Positions 425 to 12,157 of a stretch of DNA of 27,453 nucleotides are shown here, in pieces. How positions within the stretch are numbered: position 1 is the first letter of the stretch; each line of letters starts with the position of its first letter. The position numbers were made by a program, and so were the translations under genes. Under the pieces are notes generated by a model. It saw only the letters and a program-made list of their open reading frames with translations. It was not told the origin of the DNA and ran no database searches. Source of the DNA: a virus; IMG/VR virus record IMGVR_UViG_3300021085_000168, positions 1 to 27,453 of that record. One strand, written 5' to 3'.

Positions 425-3400
425 TTATTTAAATACTTTTTTTCTTCTAGTATTTTTACGCTTTTTTAATCCTCCTCTACTTCTATATCCACCTTTTTTA
501 CCTTTGCTTTTAGATTTAGGCTTAGGTTTTATTTGCCATTCTGGCCAACCTAACAACATTGCTATACTTTCCCAAGTTTCAGTATCTTCAGCTAATGCAG
601 CGTCAATATTATTCACCTTATTATACACTCTATCAACAGGTAAATTAGTTGTAGCTGATATTACCTTACCAGCTGCTTCATAAGCCGGATTATCTAAAGC
701 AAACCCTTTATCATATATTTCTTCTCTACGTTTTTTACTGTCAAACATCCAAGCTGCTTGTCTTATTTTAGATACTTTACTACTTATTGGTGGAGAAAAT
801 TGCAATAGTTTATAAACAGAATCTACATATTCAGGTCTAGTTCTACCTGATCTTTCATATAAATCAAGCAAAAAGTTTTTACCAACCGATACTGCTCCTC
901 CAGCTATACCAAGCCCTCTTAATATAGAATCAGCCATACCATTTGCTACATCAATATATTTTTCTTCTTTTTCTTCATCATCCTTTTCATCGTCACCGAA
1001 ACCTAACATTGTAACTGCTTGCTGCAACACATTAAATATCATGTTCTGCACTGCTGTATAGTATATTATTTTACTAATATTACTTTTTCTATCGCCTCTA
1101 CCTGCTATTAAATCCTGATAAGCTCTTTTAGTTAATCTACCATACTGCATTGGTGTATTAGCAAACGCTAGTAATACTCTACCTAAAGAACTAGCTTGTT
1201 GCTGCGATACTTTATCAGGTCTACTTGATTGTTGAGACTCTTCAGATGTTTCTCTAAAATCTTGGAAAGCTTTAGCTTCAGCATCGGCTTGAGTCATACC
1301 TTGTGATATGTAAGTATTAACTCTATTCCTGTAAAAGGTAGCACCACCAGATGCAATAGCAAAACTATCAGCTATCTGCGTAGGTAAAAATCCTTTCTTT
1401 AATATGTAGTTTAAAACTGCTCTAGCTTTATTCTTAGATGTTTTAGCAGCATCAGCTATCTCTGACTCTGATACGTTTATTTTAAGTCCGTTACGTCTAT
1501 CTACTAAGAAGTCAGAATTCATTAACATTTTAAAATCAGCCCAGTATTGTTTTTGATTAGCAAAAGCTTTGCCGGCTGCATATAAATTGTTGTCATTCCA
1601 GTTTATAAAGTTAATAGAAGATATTAACTGTAACACAGCTGATCTAGTATTAAAGAACATTATTGCACCAACAGATCCATTGATCCAGTCTAACACCCTA
1701 TCACTCATTCTGTTACTACCTTCTATTCTATTTTTACCAGTCTTCATTCTGGTTAACATGTTTTCTAAAGCTTCTCTATAATTACTTCCATGTATAGCTT
1801 CTAATTTGTTTAGATTTTCTTTACTAAATATAGCATCAACATTCTGCTGCCATTGCTGTAAGTATCTAGGTCTTTTAACATCATTTAAACCTTCAATAAG
1901 ATCTGTAGTAATAGTTCCAGCTAACCAGCTTTGAGAAGGTTTAGGGTAGCCATCTTCTTTATTTATCTTTATAAGTTCTTCAGCAAAAGTTTTTAATTTT
2001 TCATTACTTTCAATAATTTTCTTAGCATCAGCTACATCTCTTTTAGAAGCTCCTGGAACTTCCAGGCCTTGAGAATCCCATATATACATACGTAGAGCTT
2101 GCTCATTAGTAAATCCATCAAATGCTTCTTTTTGTAAATCTTTAGGAACATCTAAGCTTTCTTTTAGTGCTTTAAAATCAGCCATCAACTGTACTCTTGC
2201 TGCAGCCAAGCTTTCCATAGCTTTAGAAAAAGGATTAAACAAGTTGTCTTTAAAAAACTTCATTTGAGCATCTCCAGTTTTACCTTTACCTAGTAGTGGA
2301 TATATAAGACCTAGCATATCTTCTGCAGAAAAAGGTATCCAGAATTTACGTTTACCTTTTTGACTACCTATTTGTTTTGCTCTAGCTTCTGAATATACTT
2401 TTTGTCTACCAACACCTTCTGTTTCTTCTATGATTCTATTAAAATCATCACTCATTTGCTTGCTAAATCTACCTCTTGACTCTTGAGTTTTAGATTTAAT
2501 ATCAACCACGTTTAATACTCTTTCAACCGAACTAGATTGTTTTGTTCTAGGTTTAGATATTTCAAAATCAAAACTTCCTGTACCATCCCAATTTGTAGTT
2601 TCCCATATATCTGTTTCCCAACCTAGATCTTTACCTAGTTTTTCCATAAGAGAAGTGTAAAGACTAATTCTACTAGGTTCTGCTTTAGTAGCACTGAACT
2701 CAACTCTTTTTATATTAGGATTTTGTTTTATAGCATTAACTAAACCATTGTAAACTTTTCTAAAAACTGCAACAGCATCTCCGGTTCCTGTTATATCTTG
2801 AGTTACGCCAGTTTTAGTTTTTAATTCAAACTCGTATCTATAATCTCCTTGATCATCTACTGGGTCTAAACTAACAACATAATTTTTATCTTTAATGTTA
2901 AAACTAGATTTAATATTTCCAACTTCATCAGTAGTAAAATCTAATTTAGTCTTAGAAAACTTACCTGGGTTTATTTTATTTTGTTTTACTAATTGAGTTT
3001 TAGATTTTACATCTAACTTAGACATGCTTTCTTTGACAGCTCTTACGTTAGCAAGTGCATCATCTGCAAAATAAAAATCATTATATCCTTCCGCTGCTTT
3101 ACCCACTAACCATTGTGCTTTAGCTTCACCAGTTGAATTACCTAATCCTACTATATTTTGTTTTTTAAATTCTATACCTTGTGATTTTAAAAATTCATAT
3201 ATAGCTTGTTGGGCTTCAGGTGCTCTAGCAGTTAGCACAAATAAGTCTTCATTACCTCTAGCCGCTTTTATTTTTTTAGCTATATCTAAAAGTGGACCAG
3301 GTCTACCTTTGTTTACTTTGTTAAACTCTGAAAAGTCAAATTTGTATCCTTGATCTAATAATTCCTTACCTTGTTTAGCAAACTCTTCAGCGTTTAGCTT

Positions 3401-6400
3401 ACCTTCAGATCCATCAGGCGCGGTAAACAACACATCGCTCTCTGTATAAGCAAGAGTGTCATCAAAGTCAAATACTCTAATTTTTTTAACTGGCTGATCT
3501 AATGAGTTAGCTATAGCTAAAGCTTGATCCATTTTACTAAATTGCTCAAGCATTTCTTCATTAGTCATATTTTTAGGATCTATTACTTTACTAGCGAAAC
3601 CTTCTTGTTTGTTAGCTTTTATAGCTGCTTGCTCATATTGATAAGCTCGCTTTAACTCTTTACCTTTTATTTCTTTTTTGAAAGATATTATTTCTCCTTC
3701 GCTGTCTAACACTGGTGTATATACCGTCATCTCAAAAGGAAATTTACCGTAAGTAGTAGGATTATAATACCTGTCAAATCTACTTGTAGAGTCCATAGGT
3801 ATAGTATCTTTATATCTAATATTAATAGCTTGATCCATTAAATCAGGTATAACGCTTACGGATGCATCAGCAAACTTTTCTTTTAATTTATCTTTATTTA
3901 TAGTATCATTTACAAATTGAGCCATATATATTTGCATAACTCTTACAGGTGGATTATGTTCAAACCTATAGTCTTTAGGATTTATGCTGTCACTTAGCGC
4001 TATACTATCCATGAAGTATGCTGATCTTAAAATAGCAGTCATGTCTCCGGTAGAGTTAACAAAAAACATGCCTATATCGTTTACATCAACGTCAGACTTA
4101 GGATCTTTTTCTTTTGCTTTATACCAATCTAATAATTTTATTATAGCGTTTTGATTACCAATAGCGTCGTTATAACTTCGCTTTAAAGTTGCGTTACTTA
4201 ATTTACCTGTATCTAAAAATTCGTCTAAATATTTTGTAGTAGCAGCAATTGATTGAGGAGCTTTATTTGTTTCTATTAATTCACCACCGTAAGTAAACCC
4301 ACCATGTACTGGTTTTAATTTATTTTCTATATCAAAAGGTTTTAAAAGTACATTATAAAATTCTGTTTTATTATTAAATATACCGTTCCTAATGCCTTTT
4401 CCTTTAGTAGTTTTCTTTCCCTCTACTAATATACCATTTTTAGTCCACACATGATTTGGAAGTCCACCAATTTTAGCAGAACCAGTAAATGTTGTTTCAA
4501 AATGAGTAGTTACATATTTAAAAAACTCTAAGTCACTATCAAAGTCTTGTCTTAAATCTTTAAAATATTCTTTTATAGAACTAACATAAGAAGTTATTTG
4601 TTTAGGACTTCTCCAGTCTAAACCATCTTTATTAATACCTAATATATCTCTTACTAATTCTCTACTTGTTTGCTCAGCAAAAGACTTATGTAGATATTCA
4701 TTTAGTTTTGTTTTATTGTATTTTTTAGATTTGTGTAGAGTTTTAGGAAATTGATCTACTATAGTATTCCAATCTTTTTTAATACTTTTTCTCGTATCAT
4801 TCTCTACTACTTTATCTTTAACTTTTCGAGTTAAAAAATCTGAAGGAAACGCCGTGTCAAAAGCAGCGTCAACACTATAACCACTAGTGATTAATTCTAT
4901 AAAATAAGGGATATTAGCTAAATATGTTTCTTTTCGGCTTTCATTTAACTTACTAAATGTTTTACCTAGATTTTCAGCAGAAAACTGTTTTTCTTTACTA
5001 AAAAATCCAGAAGGCATACCGTCTTTCAAAGTCATAAGTGCTTGCTCAAGCTCACCATCTTCTAACAACTGCTCTCTAACTTCTTGACTAGATATTACTT
5101 GATCAAAGTTTCTAACAAATCCTTTTAGTATGTCACTTACACCACCTTTTTTACTTGGTACTTTTTGATTCCAATTAGCTTGATCTTTACCTATTATTCC
5201 AAAAGCTTCTTTAAATTCAGCATCTGATATATTAGGTTTTTTTATTTGAACTTCTAAACCAGGCCCGGTTTTAGCTCTTACACTACGTTTATTATAAAAT
5301 TTTTCTAATAGTTTATTTACAACACCAGTAGCTTTAAACTCAGAAGTATAACCTTCAAGTAGAGAACCTTTAGACATATCAACATTAGAATTTATAAAGT
5401 TCTGTATAGCTAACATTTCTGGTTTATTAAGGTCAGAGTTTTTCTCTAACTTTCTAAACATAGAATCTGCAAGATCTTTATTATCTCTAGCTATCATGTC
5501 AACTACTTCACGCAAAGCAAAACCTTTTAATTGTTTTACTTTTTTACCTTTCATGTTTTGTTGTTTAGCCTTAGATCTAATAGCTTTTACTACTCTATCT
5601 ACATTGTATATGCCTGGTGTTTTTTCTCTAACCTTAACTCCTTTTCTTTCCGCTTGTCTTATTTCTCTATCAGTTCTAGTGTCTTTGGAAGTGTCTTCTT
5701 CAGCTGCTATTTGTAAGGTGCTTTGGTCAGCTCTTACTTCGTTACTAGTTTGTTTAAAGGTATCTGTAGCTAATTTATTTGCTCTTAAATTAAATAGATT
5801 ACTAGTTTGTCTACCAGCACCTTGCATGTTTACATCCATGTCTTCGTCGTACCCCTTGTATATCTCGGTAAACAACGCTTCTAAATCTCTTTTAAAATCT
5901 TCTCTTGAAACATCCTCTTTGTTCATTTGAGCAGTTCCGTCATAAAGCCTAGATGTTGTTGACTCTATAATGCCTCCAGCTTCTTTTAATAATCTTTTAG
6001 TGTCAAACTCAGAGTCTATATCAAAGTCTGGATTTTTTGAAAACTCATCAATTTTTTTATAAGAGTCAGAAATTTTTTGAGCACTTTTAGCTCCAGTAGT
6101 TCTACCTGCAGTACCCTTTGTTACTATGTCTCCTACTTCACCTTCAAATCCTTCTTGTTTTCCTTCTGCTATACGTTTCGATTGCTTAGCATAGTCTTTA
6201 ACAAAGTTATAAACTTGTCTGCCATCTTTAAAACCTAGTTGAGCATTAGAAAATCCCATAGGTCTTAATACGTTTTCAACTATAAAATTACCTATTTTAG
6301 TAAATACATTTTCATCATATTTAATATCTCCTTTGACAACTCCGTCTACTAAAGCGTTAAAATATTCTTCTGCATTAGCATCTTCTACACTAGTAACTCC

Positions 6401-9310
6401 ATAATCATCTTTTAATCTTTTCTCTACTACCTGTAATTCTTTGCTTGTTAAAGAATTTTTAAATCCTTGTACAGTTTCAGGAGATACGTTTCCTAGTTGT
6501 TTACCTACCACACCGTGAAGTAACTCGTGCTGACCAACTGAAATGTCTCTAAGGTTTTTAGCAGCCTCTCTATTTATATATATATTACCACCATTGTCTA
6601 TGTAACCAGAAGTGCCTTTAAAACCCGCATCATCTTGTTCTCCTAGCTCTTTCATCTTAGCTTCAAACTCTTTAGATGAATTAAACTCTGTAAAAGTTTT
6701 ACCAGAAGCTTCAGTTGTTTCTCTAGCTTGTTCTAAACCAGCCTCAAATGCTGATTCAAAATTGTACTGCAAACTAATAGCTTCTAACTGTTCATTTATT
6801 TGAGTTATATCTTCTCTTTGTTTTTTTACAATAGCTTTATCAGTCGCTTTATCTACTTGCTGTTGTAGTTTTTGTTTTCTTTGTAGTAAAGTGAAAGCTT
6901 TTTTCTCTCCTTCAATAGTCAGACTCATGCCATCTATATCTCTCATCATGGCCCCGTCTTGTTTCAAATCTCTAAGTATTGTACTAGCTTGCTCTTGAGT
7001 CATAGGATCATTAGGGTCCATTACTTTCAATTGCAAATGCTGAGAATAACCTTCTTGAAAACCTTTATTAAGTGTAAAGCCTTTAGCCATTCTATATTGG
7101 CTATCAGATATTTTATCCATTGCTTTAGCTTTACTAGCTCTATGACCTGCAGATATAGTTCCAATAGGTCCACCTGCTAAAAATCCCATAGCTCCTGCTC
7201 TAACCACGTTTGACATAGTTATTTCAGTAGCCATTTTATCAAAAACTTCTTTTTCTTTCCAAGAATTAACACCAGACTTAATAGACATAGTAGCTATTTC
7301 TTGCGCTGCTTCAGTTACAGCTTCAGCGCTACCAGCTTTTAAACCAGCTTTAGTTAAAGCGTATACACCTGTTTCTAATCCTTCTTCTATTATTTCATTA
7401 GTAGCTTTTTTAATGGCGGCTTTAGAAACTTGTTTGCCAGCTAGCTTGCTCATTACTTTACCTAACACACCTTTTCTAACAACTGAACTAACTCCTTTAG
7501 CTCCCATACCACCTATCATACCTCCAAAATAACCACCAGCACCTTCTATAGCACCATTAACAACACCTATTGTCGTAGCTAAACCAAACCTTTCTTTCAT
7601 TGATAACCCTTCAAAGTCTTCACCCATCATCTCTTCCATCTCACCGCCAGCTATAGATAATCCCATTAAAGCTCCATAACCAACAGCTCCAGTGCCTGTT
7701 AAACCAGCGGCTAACATCATGCTACCCATTTCAACCATAGAAGTATACACACCGCCAGCAACAGTAGAATTAAACTCTTGTTCATATTCATTAGTTACAT
7801 CAGCTCCATACTTTTCAGTCATTTTGGATACAGCCATTTGAGCTTCTCTTGCTAAAGCTTTTTTGCCTTGTTCAGGATCTTCACTCCAATACTTTTCAAT
7901 ATCATCCTCTTTTAAAGCTAACATGCCTCCATTGAAATAAGATGTTATTTTATCTCCAACACCTAGTATAGTGTTTGCTGTTATACCAGCTATATTACCT
8001 TTTTCAGCTTCTACTACATATTTTTTAGCATTGACTATTTGAAGTTGCGCTTGTAAGGGTTGTATTTGACTACTGTACATGCTACTTAACCTTTTATCAG
8101 TAGCTAGTATGTCTTGTTCTGTTTTAACTAATAAAGCTTTTCTTTCTGCAATTTCCTCGTTAGATAAATTACCTTGTTTTATTTCGTTTTGTAATTTTTG
8201 TAAATCTAATTTGTAAGTATTAAACGCAGCTTGATTTTGTGAATATTGTTTATTAACGTCTATTAATTGATTGTTTAATTTTTGTGTTTCTTCTTTAACA
8301 ATATCAGCATCATAAATTGAATCAAAGTTTTTTACTACATCTTCAGAGACTTTTTCTTCTTTAAAAATATTAGTAACCCAATCCCAGTCATCTTCACCTT
8401 TTTCATCTTTAGCAATTTTCTCCATTGCTGCTACATCTAAATCTCCATTAGCTATAGTAGCCATCTTCTTAATACTAGTAGGATTATAGTTACCTTTATT
8501 TAAATTTAAAAAACTTTTTAATTTTGCTGCTTGTTCTTTATCACCTACGTTAGTCCAATTATCTAAAGATATTTCAGTTGCCTGGCCATTAGGTGCATAC
8601 ACTTTTATATTGTCTCCAATACCTGTTTCTTCAAAAGTAAAACCATAATCACCATATAAGTTGTTTAGAGTGCCATAAACTTGCTCTTCTTCGTGGCCTA
8701 CAATTTTAGCTCCAAGATCTCCATCTAGCACACTGGTAGGTATTTGACCTTGTTTAACACTAGATAAAGCATTGGATAAATCTTTATTATACTGCCCTAA
8801 TTTATTATCATATGTAGAGCTTTCGTCAAAATTTCTATAACTAGCTATTCCACCAGCAGCTGTGTTAAAACCAACTTCTTTCTGAGCTTCTAAAAACTCA
8901 TTAAAAGATTTGTCTCCTGCTAAAATTCTCTTACCTTCAACACTTATGTTATCCCACTCTCCAGACTTACCTAATTCAAAATCTGAATCTTTAAGTTTCA
9001 TCCTAACTTCAGTAGGTAGATGATCAAAAGATTCTATTAATAAAGCTTTATTAGGATCATACCCAGAAAGTTTATTTTTAATTCTATTTCTATACTTGTC
9101 ATCTGGACTAATTTCAACAACTTCTTCTACAACTGGGTCTTCAGGTATAGGCATATCTGTAGTACTTACCTCTTGCCCACTACCCGTTTCATCTTCTATT
9201 TTTTCTACTATAACAGCGTCTGGATATGTAGACATAAAATCAGAAAAATTACTATCATCTATATCGTGCCACAGTTGGCCTGTGGAATCTCGCATTGTGT
9301 ATTTTGGCAT
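425..9310 (-). CDS. Giant multidomain virion protein, 2961 aa, polyvalent-type, with metallopeptidase-like and HAD-like domains
   Basis: This is the last gene of the late operon and probably an internal cargo protein carried in the head and ejected with DNA. Visible parts in order: acidic N-terminal region (about 1-75); coiled coil rich in Q, N, K and E (about 335-435); Gly/Ala/Met-rich hydrophobic segments (about 514-613 and 702-725); a gluzincin-like zinc peptidase signature HELLH at 928-932 with candidate third ligand E981 or E982; a long unassigned middle with EHNPP at 1784-1788; a HAD phosphatase-like domain with D1948-x-D1950-x-T1952, T2027, K2064 and D2083-D2084; a short alpha/beta region between two repeated linkers (D2100 and D2270); a long helical C-terminal region; and a strongly basic tail (about 2928-2961). 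The layout fits what have been called large polyvalent phage proteins. Start ATG follows the upstream stop by nine bases with no Shine-Dalgarno. Catalytic activity is inferred from motifs only. The stop lies 47 bases from the terminator. Confidence 0.85.
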   Translation of the reverse strand: MPKYTMRDSTGQLWHDIDDSNFSDFMSTYPDAVIVEKIEDETGSGQEVSTTDMPIPEDPVVEEVVEISPDDKYRNRIKNKLSGYDPNKALLIESFDHLPTEVRMKLKDSDFELGKSGEWDNISVEGKRILAGDKSFNEFLEAQKEVGFNTAAGGIASYRNFDESSTYDNKLGQYNKDLSNALSSVKQGQIPTSVLDGDLGAKIVGHEEEQVYGTLNNLYGDYGFTFEETGIGDNIKVYAPNGQATEISLDNWTNVGDKEQAAKLKSFLNLNKGNYNPTSIKKMATIANGDLDVAAMEKIAKDEKGEDDWDWVTNIFKEEKVSEDVVKNFDSIYDADIVKEETQKLNNQLIDVNKQYSQNQAAFNTYKLDLQKLQNEIKQGNLSNEEIAERKALLVKTEQDILATDKRLSSMYSSQIQPLQAQLQIVNAKKYVVEAEKGNIAGITANTILGVGDKITSYFNGGMLALKEDDIEKYWSEDPEQGKKALAREAQMAVSKMTEKYGADVTNEYEQEFNSTVAGGVYTSMVEMGSMMLAAGLTGTGAVGYGALMGLSIAGGEMEEMMGEDFEGLSMKERFGLATTIGVVNGAIEGAGGYFGGMIGGMGAKGVSSVVRKGVLGKVMSKLAGKQVSKAAIKKATNEIIEEGLETGVYALTKAGLKAGSAEAVTEAAQEIATMSIKSGVNSWKEKEVFDKMATEITMSNVVRAGAMGFLAGGPIGTISAGHRASKAKAMDKISDSQYRMAKGFTLNKGFQEGYSQHLQLKVMDPNDPMTQEQASTILRDLKQDGAMMRDIDGMSLTIEGEKKAFTLLQRKQKLQQQVDKATDKAIVKKQREDITQINEQLEAISLQYNFESAFEAGLEQARETTEASGKTFTEFNSSKEFEAKMKELGEQDDAGFKGTSGYIDNGGNIYINREAAKNLRDISVGQHELLHGVVGKQLGNVSPETVQGFKNSLTSKELQVVEKRLKDDYGVTSVEDANAEEYFNALVDGVVKGDIKYDENVFTKIGNFIVENVLRPMGFSNAQLGFKDGRQVYNFVKDYAKQSKRIAEGKQEGFEGEVGDIVTKGTAGRTTGAKSAQKISDSYKKIDEFSKNPDFDIDSEFDTKRLLKEAGGIIESTTSRLYDGTAQMNKEDVSREDFKRDLEALFTEIYKGYDEDMDVNMQGAGRQTSNLFNLRANKLATDTFKQTSNEVRADQSTLQIAAEEDTSKDTRTDREIRQAERKGVKVREKTPGIYNVDRVVKAIRSKAKQQNMKGKKVKQLKGFALREVVDMIARDNKDLADSMFRKLEKNSDLNKPEMLAIQNFINSNVDMSKGSLLEGYTSEFKATGVVNKLLEKFYNKRSVRAKTGPGLEVQIKKPNISDAEFKEAFGIIGKDQANWNQKVPSKKGGVSDILKGFVRNFDQVISSQEVREQLLEDGELEQALMTLKDGMPSGFFSKEKQFSAENLGKTFSKLNESRKETYLANIPYFIELITSGYSVDAAFDTAFPSDFLTRKVKDKVVENDTRKSIKKDWNTIVDQFPKTLHKSKKYNKTKLNEYLHKSFAEQTSRELVRDILGINKDGLDWRSPKQITSYVSSIKEYFKDLRQDFDSDLEFFKYVTTHFETTFTGSAKIGGLPNHVWTKNGILVEGKKTTKGKGIRNGIFNNKTEFYNVLLKPFDIENKLKPVHGGFTYGGELIETNKAPQSIAATTKYLDEFLDTGKLSNATLKRSYNDAIGNQNAIIKLLDWYKAKEKDPKSDVDVNDIGMFFVNSTGDMTAILRSAYFMDSIALSDSINPKDYRFEHNPPVRVMQIYMAQFVNDTINKDKLKEKFADASVSVIPDLMDQAINIRYKDTIPMDSTSRFDRYYNPTTYGKFPFEMTVYTPVLDSEGEIISFKKEIKGKELKRAYQYEQAAIKANKQEGFASKVIDPKNMTNEEMLEQFSKMDQALAIANSLDQPVKKIRVFDFDDTLAYTESDVLFTAPDGSEGKLNAEEFAKQGKELLDQGYKFDFSEFNKVNKGRPGPLLDIAKKIKAARGNEDLFVLTARAPEAQQAIYEFLKSQGIEFKKQNIVGLGNSTGEAKAQWLVGKAAEGYNDFYFADDALANVRAVKESMSKLDVKSKTQLVKQNKINPGKFSKTKLDFTTDEVGNIKSSFNIKDKNYVVSLDPVDDQGDYRYEFELKTKTGVTQDITGTGDAVAVFRKVYNGLVNAIKQNPNIKRVEFSATKAEPSRISLYTSLMEKLGKDLGWETDIWETTNWDGTGSFDFEISKPRTKQSSSVERVLNVVDIKSKTQESRGRFSKQMSDDFNRIIEETEGVGRQKVYSEARAKQIGSQKGKRKFWIPFSAEDMLGLIYPLLGKGKTGDAQMKFFKDNLFNPFSKAMESLAAARVQLMADFKALKESLDVPKDLQKEAFDGFTNEQALRMYIWDSQGLEVPGASKRDVADAKKIIESNEKLKTFAEELIKINKEDGYPKPSQSWLAGTITTDLIEGLNDVKRPRYLQQWQQNVDAIFSKENLNKLEAIHGSNYREALENMLTRMKTGKNRIEGSNRMSDRVLDWINGSVGAIMFFNTRSAVLQLISSINFINWNDNNLYAAGKAFANQKQYWADFKMLMNSDFLVDRRNGLKINVSESEIADAAKTSKNKARAVLNYILKKGFLPTQIADSFAIASGGATFYRNRVNTYISQGMTQADAEAKAFQDFRETSEESQQSSRPDKVSQQQASSLGRVLLAFANTPMQYGRLTKRAYQDLIAGRGDRKSNISKIIYYTAVQNMIFNVLQQAVTMLGFGDDEKDDEEKEEKYIDVANGMADSILRGLGIAGGAVSVGKNFLLDLYERSGRTRPEYVDSVYKLLQFSPPISSKVSKIRQAAWMFDSKKRREEIYDKGFALDNPAYEAAGKVISATTNLPVDRVYNKVNNIDAALAEDTETWESIAMLLGWPEWQIKPKPKSKSKGKKGGYRSRGGLKKRKNTRRKKVFK
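2483..2503 (-). repeat. Linker repeat copy 2 inside giant gene (D-I-K-S-K-T-Q)
   Basis: This 21-base segment matches 19 of 21 bases of the segment at 2993-3013 in the same orientation and codon phase. It encodes DIKSKTQ beginning at residue 2270 and is followed twelve residues later by GRFSK (F2282), just before the long helical C-terminal region. Confidence 0.7.
2993..3013 (-). repeat. Linker repeat copy 1 inside giant gene (D-V-K-S-K-T-Q)
   Basis: This segment encodes DVKSKTQ beginning at residue 2100, immediately after the HAD-like domain, and is followed by GKFSK (F2118). It is the partner of the copy at 2483-2503; the two copies bracket a region of about 170 residues. Confidence 0.7.
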
Positions 9311-9319
9311 AAAATTTTA

Positions 9320-11050
9320 TTATGGATTAGTTATAGTACCTCCACCTTGTTGAGCAGGTTGTCCAGCTTGACCAGGTTTTCCTTGATTTTTGAAAGATTT
9401 AGACGGTGAACTTGCATTTACACCTTGATAATCAGGGTTTAAATATCTTCTTCCTTTATAATTAAAAAATTGTTGATCAGAGCTTGGCTTTGGCTCTACT
9501 GATTTATAAGCTTGTTCTGCAGCTTGAGATCTTCTTTGAGAATATATGGTTTGTTGATCTAGGTTAATACCACCTTCGTCAGCTAAAGCAGCTCTTATAC
9601 CTTCAGCAGTATTAGTTCCTGGTATAATATCTCCTTGTTCATCAACTACAGATCCTATTGGCATTTTGTTTTTATCTGCTAAATCTTTTAAAAACTTGCT
9701 TTTTTCTTCCTTGGTTTTGAGTTCATCATATTCTTCGTTTTTCTCGTCAGTCATCATATCAAGTATGTATGCTTCGTCAATAACGCTATAAGTCTTGCCA
9801 ACCGGATTAACCTCTGTTAAAGCAGATGCTATTTTATCAGGATTACCAACTAACTCATTTGATTTTTCAGCATATACATTGTATCTTTGTTCTCTAGCTT
9901 GATCTGTTAAGCTTGACTCAGCTACTTTGCCTGATCCAGGTGCTTTATATTTTTTAGTAGATTGTATCATCTTTATACCATCAGCCGCAGCATTATCCTC
10001 TATAGACTTGTTAGCCATCCACCTCGCAGCCTCGTCTCTTTGTTTTTTAATATTAGCTTCTGTCTCTTCAGCTGTAGCGCCTTCGACATCCATCCAGTCT
10101 GTGTCTCTACCCATCATATCAGCCCAAACGCTTTGCATACGCTCTTCATCATCTAAGATGCCTTTAAATTGGTTAGAAGTAACCATAGATTCAGCAGCTT
10201 TAGTTCTTTGTTCAGGTGTCATGTATTTAAGCGTAGCTTCTTGATCACCTATTCTCTTTGTTTCAAACATTACTAAATCAGCATTATCTTTACCACCAGG
10301 TTTAACAGTGTTATTATAAACACCTTTTAAAGACTCAGATATATCAGGCACTGTTTTAAAGTATTCTTTGCCACTATTTTCTAATTGAAGCAGCTCATTA
10401 ACGTTTATCATGGCAGGTTCTTTACCATCTTCACCTGGTTTAAATAAACATAATTGACCATTATCATCTACTAACTTTACATTGCCACCTTGAGATAAAG
10501 CTAATAAAACTTCTTGTTGAGCAGTAGGTACTCTAGAGCTTATGGAGCCAGGTTGTCCAGGTGGTATTTTTAAAGCTTCTTGCAGCGCTTTTGTTTGAGC
10601 CATTATAGGAACAATTGACTCTTTAAAAGTGGTAACTTGATTGTTTAAATATGACAAATGTCTATTACCCTCTACTTGAGATATACTACCATTTTGTATA
10701 CCTTTTTTTATTTTAAAGTAGTTTTCTGTTTGATCACCAAAAAAATCATTCATATTTTGATCAAATTTACCATAGCCTGTTTCTTTTATACCTGAAACTT
10801 TATCAAACATACTTCTTTGCTCTGTGTTTTGCTCTGCAAACAATTGCTCTTGAGAAGCTCTTTCTAATTTGTTTTTAGCTATTACACTGGAAACCATTTT
10901 ATCCATTTCTTGAGATAAACTTGGTCTACTTGCTAAAAATTGAGAAAACTGCTCGTTCGTTTGTTGTTGAGGATTAGAGTATGCACCAGTGCTTCTTGAT
11001 GCTGCTCCACCCTTACCTAATCCACCGCCGTAATTTTGTACTTTTGCCAT
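9320..11050 (-). CDS. Probable internal virion (cargo) protein, 576 aa
   Basis: I do not recognise a catalytic domain. The N-terminus is Gly/Ser/Gln-rich (GGGLGKGGAASRSTG), followed by a Q/E/K-rich helical region. The middle is mixed polar alpha/beta with many charged residues, including a DWMDVEG patch and an E-rich segment, and the C-terminus is a flexible Gly/Gln/Pro tail. There is no signal peptide and no membrane helix. It lies between a smaller Ala/Gly-rich protein and the giant protein, in the position where podovirus-type phages keep proteins packed inside the head and ejected before DNA. The stop is nine bases from the giant gene's start and the start is eleven bases after the upstream stop; the leader is A/T only. 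A virion cargo role is inferred from position and composition. Confidence 0.6.
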   Translation of the reverse strand: MAKVQNYGGGLGKGGAASRSTGAYSNPQQQTNEQFSQFLASRPSLSQEMDKMVSSVIAKNKLERASQEQLFAEQNTEQRSMFDKVSGIKETGYGKFDQNMNDFFGDQTENYFKIKKGIQNGSISQVEGNRHLSYLNNQVTTFKESIVPIMAQTKALQEALKIPPGQPGSISSRVPTAQQEVLLALSQGGNVKLVDDNGQLCLFKPGEDGKEPAMINVNELLQLENSGKEYFKTVPDISESLKGVYNNTVKPGGKDNADLVMFETKRIGDQEATLKYMTPEQRTKAAESMVTSNQFKGILDDEERMQSVWADMMGRDTDWMDVEGATAEETEANIKKQRDEAARWMANKSIEDNAAADGIKMIQSTKKYKAPGSGKVAESSLTDQAREQRYNVYAEKSNELVGNPDKIASALTEVNPVGKTYSVIDEAYILDMMTDEKNEEYDELKTKEEKSKFLKDLADKNKMPIGSVVDEQGDIIPGTNTAEGIRAALADEGGINLDQQTIYSQRRSQAAEQAYKSVEPKPSSDQQFFNYKGRRYLNPDYQGVNASSPSKSFKNQGKPGQAGQPAQQGGGTITNP

Positions 11051-11061
11051 AATTTATATTT

Positions 11062-11754
11062 TTAAGGTGTTGTTTTTGGAGGTATAACCGCTCCTAAATA
11101 TTCATTAGCACCACCAGCTCCAAAAGACTGAACACCACCAGCTAAACCGCTAGCCATACCACCTACAGCACCTAGCATCTGTTGATTAGCCGCCATTTTA
11201 ACATTGTTAGCTTGCATAGCCATAGCCTCAGCATTGTCTTGTTCTGTTTGTAATCTATCCATTTTGGATACGTCTCTTGCTTCTTGAGTTTCAAACTTGT
11301 AAGCTTCTCCTTGAGCTTTCAGTTGTTGTACCTGGTTAGCACCTTCAGCTCTAGCCGTGTTATTAGCTTGTTCTTGTTTTTCTATGTCAGCAGATATACC
11401 ACGTTTAGATTCTAAAGCTGCTCTAGCTAAAGCAGTTGCACCGCCAGCTCCACCGCCAGTTTGCATTATAGTATCTAAAGTATTAGCCAGCGCAATATCA
11501 GCTTCTTCAGCAGCAAACTTAGAAGCTTGAGTAGCAACACCAATGTTTTCAAATTCATTAGCCATATTTTCATAAGGATTAATAACTTCTTGCCTGTTTT
11601 TTTCAAGTTCTGCTAATGCGGTTTTTGCATCATTAGCCTTTTGCTCTTGTTTTATTAATTCTGCTTTAGCGTTGTTCTTAGTCATTTGAGCATCTACCAT
11701 TTTGGTGACACCTCCTATTCCCGCTGCTATTGCTATACTTGTTGCTACTGCCAT
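11062..11754 (-). CDS. Probable small internal virion protein, 230 aa, membrane-active type
   Basis: An Ala/Gly-rich hydrophobic N-terminus (about 1-22, ATSIAIAAGIGG) leads into a long helical, Ala/Gln/Glu/Lys-rich stretch (about 25-190). The C-terminal segment (about 193-222) is Gly-rich and hydrophobic (LGAVGGMASGLAGG). Hydrophobic ends around an amphipathic helical core recall the smallest ejected internal proteins of podoviruses (T7 gp14 and analogues in crAss-like phages), thought to insert into the host envelope to form the DNA channel. No sequence match to T7 gp14 is claimed. The ATG is one base after the stop of the acetyltransferase-like gene, so the pair is probably translationally coupled. 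The role is inferred from composition and gene order. Confidence 0.6.
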   Translation of the reverse strand: MAVATSIAIAAGIGGVTKMVDAQMTKNNAKAELIKQEQKANDAKTALAELEKNRQEVINPYENMANEFENIGVATQASKFAAEEADIALANTLDTIMQTGGGAGGATALARAALESKRGISADIEKQEQANNTARAEGANQVQQLKAQGEAYKFETQEARDVSKMDRLQTEQDNAEAMAMQANNVKMAANQQMLGAVGGMASGLAGGVQSFGAGGANEYLGAVIPPKTTP

Positions 11755-11755
11755 A

Positions 11756-12157
11756 TTACAATACTTTTGTTAATTCATAAGAGTGTTTAGTATCTGCTAC
11801 CCACCCTAGTTTTTCATGTGTTTCTATTAGTCCTTTATGTTGCATTACTGCAAATAAATATTTATAATCAAGAGATTTAACTAAGTTTTCAGCACCAGTT
11901 ATAAGAAGCTCTATAGCTGCTTTTCTGTCATCTTCTCTATATTTTGGATTAGACACTATCCATTCTAATAAAGCTGTCTTAGAATTAGTTAAATAAACAA
12001 AACCAGCTACTACTGGTGTATCATTTATTTCTACTATTAAACCTCCTTTACCATTTTCTGGTAAAAAGTCTTTTGTTGGAGCTTTCCACTTAGGCCAATT
12101 ACTCCACCAAGACACTAATGTATCCCAGTCTTTGTCTGTAAGTTTACGTATATTCAA
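11756..12157 (-). CDS. GNAT-family N-acetyltransferase-like protein, 133 aa
   Basis: The protein has the length and layout of a single GNAT fold: an N-terminal IRKLTDKDWDTL strand-helix, a GLIVEINDTPVVAGFVYL hairpin (about 39-56), a central strand LLEWIVSNPKYR (about 63-74), a long helix after the acetyl-CoA loop position, then YLFAVMQHKGLIETHEKLGW, the usual late strand-helix-strand. The family moves the acetyl group of acetyl-CoA to an amine. The loop normally written Q/R-x-x-G-x-G/A reads YREDDRKA (73-80), without the glycines, so cofactor binding may be altered or lost. The start is TTG at 12157; no in-frame ATG lies between the upstream stop and that codon, and starting there preserves the first strand. 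It sits inside the structural operon, two genes from the tail proteins, so it may modify a virion protein or a host target early in infection. Confidence 0.65.
   Translation of the reverse strand: MNIRKLTDKDWDTLVSWWSNWPKWKAPTKDFLPENGKGGLIVEINDTPVVAGFVYLTNSKTALLEWIVSNPKYREDDRKAAIELLITGAENLVKSLDYKYLFAVMQHKGLIETHEKLGWVADTKHSYELTKVL

Follow-up and report, generated by a model that had tools for sequence, protein, structure and literature searches.

A 2,961-residue protein encoded by a marine phage represents a new family of polyvalent, presumed virion proteins that is unusually well defined, and the protein is probably packed in the head of the virus and injected with the DNA. The window, which is the complete stretch of 27,453 bases of the virus record IMGVR_UViG_3300021085_000168, contained the single open reading frame (ORF) described in the initial annotation, and the strand, which had not been given there, could be added.

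425..9310, minus strand: ORF of the giant polyvalent-type protein, ATG start, 2961 aa, over 100 relatives

The reading favored here, with moderate confidence, is that of a large internal, ejected virion protein of a Bacteroidota podovirus, belonging to the polyvalent class and having the predicted domain activities outlined below. Domain order, conservation of the active sites, swapping of modules, nesting of a kinase, and gene position could be shown by comparison of the sequences and models of the relatives; packaging, ejection, enzymatic activity, and target are inferred.

Scans of IMG/VR yielded 60 loci with the C-terminal part of the protein and 258 loci with its HAD domain, 80 of which were kept. 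The relatives collected comprised 121 distinct ORFs, mostly 2100 to 3600 aa in length, or 95 after removal of near-duplicates, and all counts of relatives take in related contigs. More than 100 of these metagenomic relatives were built on the same frame, a variable N-terminus followed by one HExxH zincin, a variable middle part, the HAD, and a helical C-terminus of about 650 aa. All 93 members for which the three landmarks were scored had them in the order HExxH, HAD, and C-terminal core (93/93). The active-site residues of zincin and HAD were fixed across about 100 diverged relatives while the remaining sequence drifted. No relative of the giant protein was found among 50,697 phage records, and no cultured phage in this collection carries the full protein. 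Matches in bacterial assemblies were mostly in bins labeled Bacteroidota, and several of the matches were likely mis-binned. Searches with the whole protein in Pfam, NCBI PDB sequences, and PDB folds gave no usable match; Pfam matches to Gemini_V2 and TusA (E 0.01 to 0.02) were below the cut-off and taken as chance. Two parts of the protein were modeled with AlphaFold2 (mean pLDDT about 72, pTM 0.60 and 0.45), and neither model had a Foldseek hit below 1e-3 in the PDB.

The first fixed element of the frame is the zincin.

6071..6694, minus strand: zincin-type metallopeptidase domain, residues 873-1080, from conserved residues and the AlphaFold2 model
6515..6529, minus strand: HELLH zinc-binding motif, residues 928-932, one HExxH per relative
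6365..6367, minus strand: E982, predicted third zinc ligand, invariant in 110/110 aligned rows

The HELLH motif noticed initially is present at residues 928 to 932, one HExxH being seen where a shuffled copy of the protein would be expected to contain 0.006. Exactly one HExxH occurred in about 109 to 110 of the 115 relatives longer than 1500 aa, and six of these 115 had none, three of the six being truncated. The two middle residues of the motif came in 34 variants among the relatives, and such a number of combinations, above 30, means that HExxH is held by selection and not by close kinship. In the 110 rows aligned to the window protein, H928, E929, and H932 were invariant, and E982 was the sole further fully invariant column. 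A zincin fold is expected to provide its third zinc ligand from a later helix, which is where E982 is located (PMC5512222). In the AlphaFold2 model of this part (pLDDT about 80 to 90), a helix and a small beta sheet of three strands precede the HELLH helix, and E982 is carried by a helix further downstream, as is expected of a zincin. By sequence and model, residues 873 to 1080 are a zincin metallopeptidase with E982 as the expected third zinc ligand, and proteolysis is its predicted activity. The giant protein of Elemovirus contains a homologous zincin at residues 1459 to 1660 (E 1e-12). None of the Pfam LPD or MPTase models scored over threshold. The complete giant proteins L156, L112, and L052 possess no HExxH and are natural zincin-less members, which could show the purpose of the peptidase.

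Upstream of the zincin, the protein is variable, and each of the N-terminal modules is common to only 4 to 9 of the 121 members.

8306..8758, minus strand: N-terminal module, residues 185-335, common to the giant protein of phage MW202828 and 7/121 relatives
8021..8323, minus strand: predicted coiled coil, residues 330-430, top heptad periodicity in the protein
7031..7753, minus strand: Gly/Ala-rich, mildly hydrophobic segment, residues 520-760, no clear membrane span

The module at residues 185 to 335 was 29.7% identical to its counterpart in the MW202828 giant protein (E 1e-8). Calling the following region a coiled coil was fair, because the best heptad periodicity of the whole protein falls at about residues 330 to 395. 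The glycine-rich hydrophobic segments announced initially were real with respect to their glycine content but just mildly hydrophobic: the best 21-residue Kyte-Doolittle mean between about residues 520 and 760 was 1.30. A segment of at least 1.4 upstream of the peptidase was present in 45 of 100 relatives only, and the designation of this part as “membrane-like” is weak for these two reasons. A membrane span in this segment was unsupported by the hydrophobicity values.

The middle part between zincin and HAD and the region behind the HAD contain further modules, as expected from the suggestion that the large unassigned stretches may hide additional domains; this suggestion held for a GNAT-like module at residues 2120 to 2265, described below, and for a conserved module at about residues 1740 to 1910.

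4991..6043, minus strand: middle module A, unassigned, residues 1090-1440, present in 42/121 relatives
3581..4093, minus strand: middle module C, residues 1740-1910, with an “EHNPPV” motif, present in 76/121 relatives

Module C, located before the HAD, had no family match despite its conservation. Module exchange was seen in pairwise comparisons. The window protein and the relative L002 have an identity of about 94% as far as residue 1455, are unrelated from there to about residue 1890, and become similar again behind it; compared with L003, identity jumps at residue 1081 from about 25% to 96 to 100%. Such abrupt junctions, that to L003 near residue 1081 (about 25% to 96%) included, are also what a chimeric assembly artefact would produce. 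That the giant ORF is such an artefact is nevertheless extremely improbable and is refuted by the recurrence of the same order in more than 100 independent contigs, with no internal stops.

The second fixed element is the HAD.

2996..3493, minus strand: HAD domain, probably of the polynucleotide-kinase-phosphatase type, residues 1940-2105, from motifs, PHROG, hhalign, and model

The set of HAD motifs was complete, as had been stated, with DFDDT at 1948 to 1952, T2027, K2064, and DD at 2083 to 2084. Invariant residues were T2027, R2029, K2064, D2083, and D2084 in 100/100 aligned members and D1948 and D1950 in the 98/98 members with aligned letters at these positions. In the AlphaFold2 model (model numbering for the elements), D1948 ends the strand 44-49, T2027 ends the strand 124-128, D2083 and D2084 follow the strand 179-183, and K2064 is in the helix 162-174. 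This is the canonical HAD layout, in which motifs I (DxD), II (T/S), III (K), and IV (DD) sit where the Rossmannoid strands end. The parts around HELLH and DFDDT are separate domains with active-site residues invariant in about 100 diverged relatives, and the single continuous fold that would have spoken against the initial interpretation was not seen. In the AlphaFold2 models, H928, E929, H932, and E982 fall on the helices and the invariant residues of the phosphatase-like part on the strands and helix where a zincin and a HAD, respectively, would have them.

The HAD appears to resemble the 3′-phosphatase of T4 Pnkp. PHROG 415 (polynucleotide kinase) matched the window protein with 1.1e-6 and 8 of 15 relatives, the best of them with 5.8e-9. 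An hhalign comparison of the HAD with seven T4-Pnkp-type proteins gave an E of 2.6e-4 at a probability of only 43%; the alignment with T4 Pnkp pairs the S-G-R/T-A-R, K, and DD motifs. Mouse PNKP was among the weak PDB matches (E about 1). A HAD of this kind suggests a role in healing nucleic acid ends more than that of an unspecific phosphatase effector. The window protein contains the phosphatase only, a P-loop kinase being absent from it.

In relatives, a kinase is present, and it is inside the HAD. A P-loop kinase was located between HAD motif I and motif II in L068 (residues 2130 to 2535, DNA positions 8795 to 10012), L048, and L064, with a Pfam AAA_33 match of 3.4e-13 and a match to the T4 Pnkp kinase with an E of 1.4e-11. 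In a dedicated kinase scan (L200 to L223), no fewer than 17 loci had the kinase flanked in one frame by motif I immediately before it and motif II immediately after it, some of these loci overlapping with the first three contigs. The site of entry corresponds, in the model, to strands 61-64 and 70-73, which form the flap hairpin behind motif I; C1 caps are inserted into HAD proteins at this place. The window protein has a plain hairpin there. T4 Pnkp itself is a 301-aa enzyme with the kinase first and the phosphatase second. The nested kinase is homologous to that of T4 Pnkp (PseT) and the HAD catalytic motifs align, but here the phosphatase belongs to a giant protein, and any kinase that accompanies it within the HAD interrupts the phosphatase after motif I. 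In L207, L210, and L211, the kinase was outside the HAD or the HAD was missing. Other inserts occupied the same hairpin in L072 (residues 2040 to 2200), L054 (2010 to 2200), and L061 (2000 to 2140). Their Pfam matches to ART-PolyVal were weak (E 0.017 for L072 and 0.010 for L054, both below the cut-off, and 0.031 for L061), so that an ART-like insert may tentatively be assigned to L072 and L054 and more weakly to L061. L055 had been considered a further carrier, but its aligned segment failed to match.

Instead of healing ends, the HAD may be a nucleotide or sugar phosphatase acting, for example, on cyclic-nucleotide or ADP-ribose signals of defense systems. HAD substrates are hard to predict from the sequence and the direct score between HAD and Pnkp was modest; a small-molecule substrate is nevertheless somewhat unlikely in view of the Pnkp-type kinase nested in the same HAD in at least 17 relatives and of the PHROG polynucleotide kinase matches.

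Between HAD and C-terminal core, the window protein contains an additional module flanked by two copies of a linker.

2516..2953, minus strand: GNAT-like module, residues 2120-2265, not present in L004 and L005, phrog_16075 E 5e-8
2951..3016, minus strand: linker copy 1 (LDVKSKTQ...KFSK), residues 2099-2120, from sequence comparison
2459..2512, minus strand: linker copy 2 (VVDIKSKTQESRGRFSK; VVDIKSKTQ...RFSK), residues 2267-2284, from sequence comparison

GNAT acetyltransferases have a beta-alpha order with a GxG loop for acetyl-CoA ahead of alpha3. Residues 2120 to 2265 look GNAT-like in sequence and model, with a similar order of strands and helices, an invariant ITGxG, and GNAT structures among the weak PDB matches (E about 1); there was no Pfam hit, and phrog_16075 is a family of unknown function. 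The module occurred in 10 of the 121 members. L004 and L005, without residues 2105 to 2280, have a single linker copy at this place. The tripeptide FSK occurred 8 times in the window protein, compared with 1.4 expected, mostly at module borders. Among the relatives, K/R-F-S was enriched 1.8-fold and K/R-F-S-[KRLE] 3.6-fold, concentrated in linkers: the frequency of K/R-F-S per 1000 residues was 13 at the HAD/C-terminal junction, fell to 2.5 ahead of the HAD and to 1.5 behind the zincin, and was 0 to 0.3 inside domains. A single motif at which the zincin cleaves was not adopted as explanation, most of the signal coming from the one HAD/C-terminal junction, so that shared linker ancestry may explain the enrichment. 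K/R-F-S could mark a site of cleavage or a patch for recombination, or the linker may simply be a shared one.

Self-processing is not the only candidate function of the zincin. It may be a host-directed effector protease, for instance against a defense or transcription protein, as the N4 virion RNA polymerase is packaged uncleaved despite its MPTase domain (PMC5512222). That the zincin is universally present, whereas the other effector-like modules vary, points to a role bound up with the giant protein, and the K/R-F-S motif is almost confined to linkers; a host target may be considered possible but not likely.

The frame ends with the C-terminal core and a basic tail.

530..2470, minus strand: C-terminal core, residues 2281-2927, predicted to be all-helical, found in nearly all members, from model and fold matches
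428..523, minus strand: polybasic tail, residues 2930-2961, from charge count

Residues 2281 to 2927 had no sequence family match. Their model, compared with the predicted viral structures of BFVD, gave 53 hits below 1e-3. The top matches were four close uncharacterized relatives with 31 to 36% identity. Further matches covered about 770 columns at 10 to 15% identity and carried names such as ART-PolyVal-like, large polyvalent protein-associated, MuF C-terminal, or nuclease; E values of the LPD, ART-PolyVal, and MuF-type phage proteins went down to 1e-13. These matches would tie the protein by its fold to the polyvalent class, but with a global rmsd of 8 to 29 angstrom, they concern the arrangement and not the detail. 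The polybasic tail, noticed initially in the one protein, is a family feature: 53% of the relatives had a charge of at least +8 in their last 30 residues, compared with 0.24% of internal 30-mers.

The position of the gene is that of an ejected protein. The giant gene closes the structural module of a podovirus, which is transcribed in the order terminase, portal, scaffold-like, major capsid, ring/stabilization-like genes, and the genes for a 133-aa, a 230-aa, a 576-aa, and the giant protein.

9320..11050, minus strand: 576-aa partner protein at the position of T7 gp15, a gene for 358 to 786 aa being there in 117/121 relatives
11062..11754, minus strand: 230-aa partner protein at the position of T7 gp14, homologous to elemo_203 and Panino gp72
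11756..12157, minus strand: 133-aa acetyltransferase-like protein, 39% identical to UOF82511 of MW202828

Both partner genes, for about 230 and about 576 aa, were directly upstream of the giant gene in 111 of the 121 relatives. In T7, the internal core proteins gp14, gp15, and gp16 form the ejectosome. As in T7, three consecutive genes for about 200, 550, and more than 1000 residues close the structural module, and the small protein has a hydrophobic start and a coiled-coil-like body. A profile search of the 230-aa family against solved T7 core proteins gave no sequence match, and, different from T7, no peptidoglycan hydrolase was found while the large protein carries peptidase and HAD. The place of the giant gene corresponds to that of an ejected protein like T7 gp16. 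The small acetyltransferase-like gene at 11756 to 12157 lies between tail and ejection genes and is kept in MW202828, where UOF82511 is annotated as an N-terminal acetyltransferase subunit.

The closest phages by capsid and portal were MW202828, Maribacter phage Panino, Elemovirus, Callevirus phi38:1, and phi13:2 of the Pachyviridae, with giant genes for 3859, 1829, 3694, 1691, and 1990 aa, respectively, at the equivalent locus. The order from TerL, portal, scaffold, and MCP to the 230-aa, 576-aa, and giant proteins was common to MW202828, Elemovirus, phi38:1, and phi13:2. The 230-aa protein matched elemo_203 (E 3e-5) and Panino gp72 (E 9e-4), and these Elemovirus and Panino counterparts matched phi38:1 gp99 and phi13:2 gp124. 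The giant genes of Elemovirus, phi38:1 (Pervagoviridae), and phi13:2 are annotated “structural protein” in their records, as is each of gp99, gp100, and gp101 of phi38:1. The passages considered from a methylation proteomics study of phi38:1 leave the giant protein unmentioned (PMC13288928). The giant proteins of Elemovirus, phi38:1 (gp101), phi13:2 (gp127), and MW202828 (UOF82488) share locus and partners with the window protein, that of Elemovirus also the homologous zincin and UOF82488 the N-terminal module, but unlike the window protein all four are without HAD and C-terminal core. Neither HExxH nor HAD was found in the giant proteins of phi38:1 and phi13:2, which counts against the favored reading. 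A DUF3293 domain (E 1e-12) was seen at residues 1323 to 1392 of the Elemovirus giant virion protein (L010).

These data would also agree with a purely structural component of the ejectosome or core, similar to T7 gp16 or a tape measure protein, with the zincin as nothing but a head maturation protease and HAD and GNAT-like modules as inserted passengers that matter little. Position and partners are as in T7, conservation is highest in the helical C-terminal core, and MPTase domains linked to the head have precedents in P1 DdrB and the N4 vRNAP (PMC5512222). The HAD catalytic residues are invariant in about 100 diverged proteins, however, and kinase, ART-like, and GNAT-like modules are present in some members and missing from others, which is the pattern of an adaptive effector and not of a scaffold. 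A solely structural role is, on balance, unlikely.

The initial interpretation as an ejected effector package was supported in part, disarming of the host being a putative role. The favored reading of an ejected polyvalent protein leads to the following mechanism. The giant protein would be packed in the head with its partners of about 230 and about 576 aa and would travel into the cell together with the DNA, its domains strung along a single flexible chain; the helical C-terminal core and the basic tail may serve assembly or DNA contact. Inside the cell, the zincin would act, most likely by self-cleavage in linkers and less likely on a host protein, and the HAD would act as a 3′-phosphatase on nucleic acid ends left by host defense nucleases. 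In relatives, the nested T4-Pnkp-type 5′-kinase would complete the end-healing pair, and GNAT-like module and, in relatives, ART-like inserts would modify host proteins. A more daring version is an injected end-repair machine in which the Pnkp-type phosphatase is a socket, its flap hairpin accepts kinase or ART, and the zincin frees the modules at the K/R-F-S linkers. We regard this version as rather doubtful; if true, the phage would undo tRNA or DNA cleavage by host defenses before expressing any gene.

The likeness to the polyvalent proteins of phages and conjugative elements (Iyer et al. 2017) concerns the very large multidomain phage protein itself, here with zincin, HAD, and GNAT-like module in one polypeptide and kinase and ART-like modules in relatives, the HExxH zincin hub with its downstream helix glutamate, the GNAT- and ART-like modules, the shuffling of modules, and a C-terminal fold that appears to be shared with LPD and ART-PolyVal proteins (PMC5512222). 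The main text of that paper does not mention a phosphatase or polynucleotide kinase; here, zincin, HAD, and helical core are fixed in about 100 proteins and enzymes are plugged in, some inside the HAD. The N4 virion RNA polymerase is likewise a single polypeptide of about 3500 aa in the virion with an MPTase domain (PMC5512222), but Pfam and PHROG profile searches found no RNA polymerase domain in the window protein.

With no isolate in the phage collection carrying the protein, this is a common marine family that has so far gone unstudied. Polyvalent proteins were described from scattered architectures, whereas the approximately 100 relatives here display one fixed frame with swappable parts, and the roles of frame and cargo are therefore separately testable. 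T4 makes its end-healing enzymes after infection. Jumbo phages possess HAD phosphatase-polynucleotide kinase fusions among the RNA repair enzymes that reverse host tRNA cleavage (PMC7824862), and here such an enzyme pair would arrive with the virion. A Pnkp-type phosphatase with a nested kinase, placed in a protein that is presumably ejected, suggests that the end healing of RNA or DNA is carried into the cell by some phages, and whether ejected proteins act against defense by nucleases thereby becomes testable in a concrete way.
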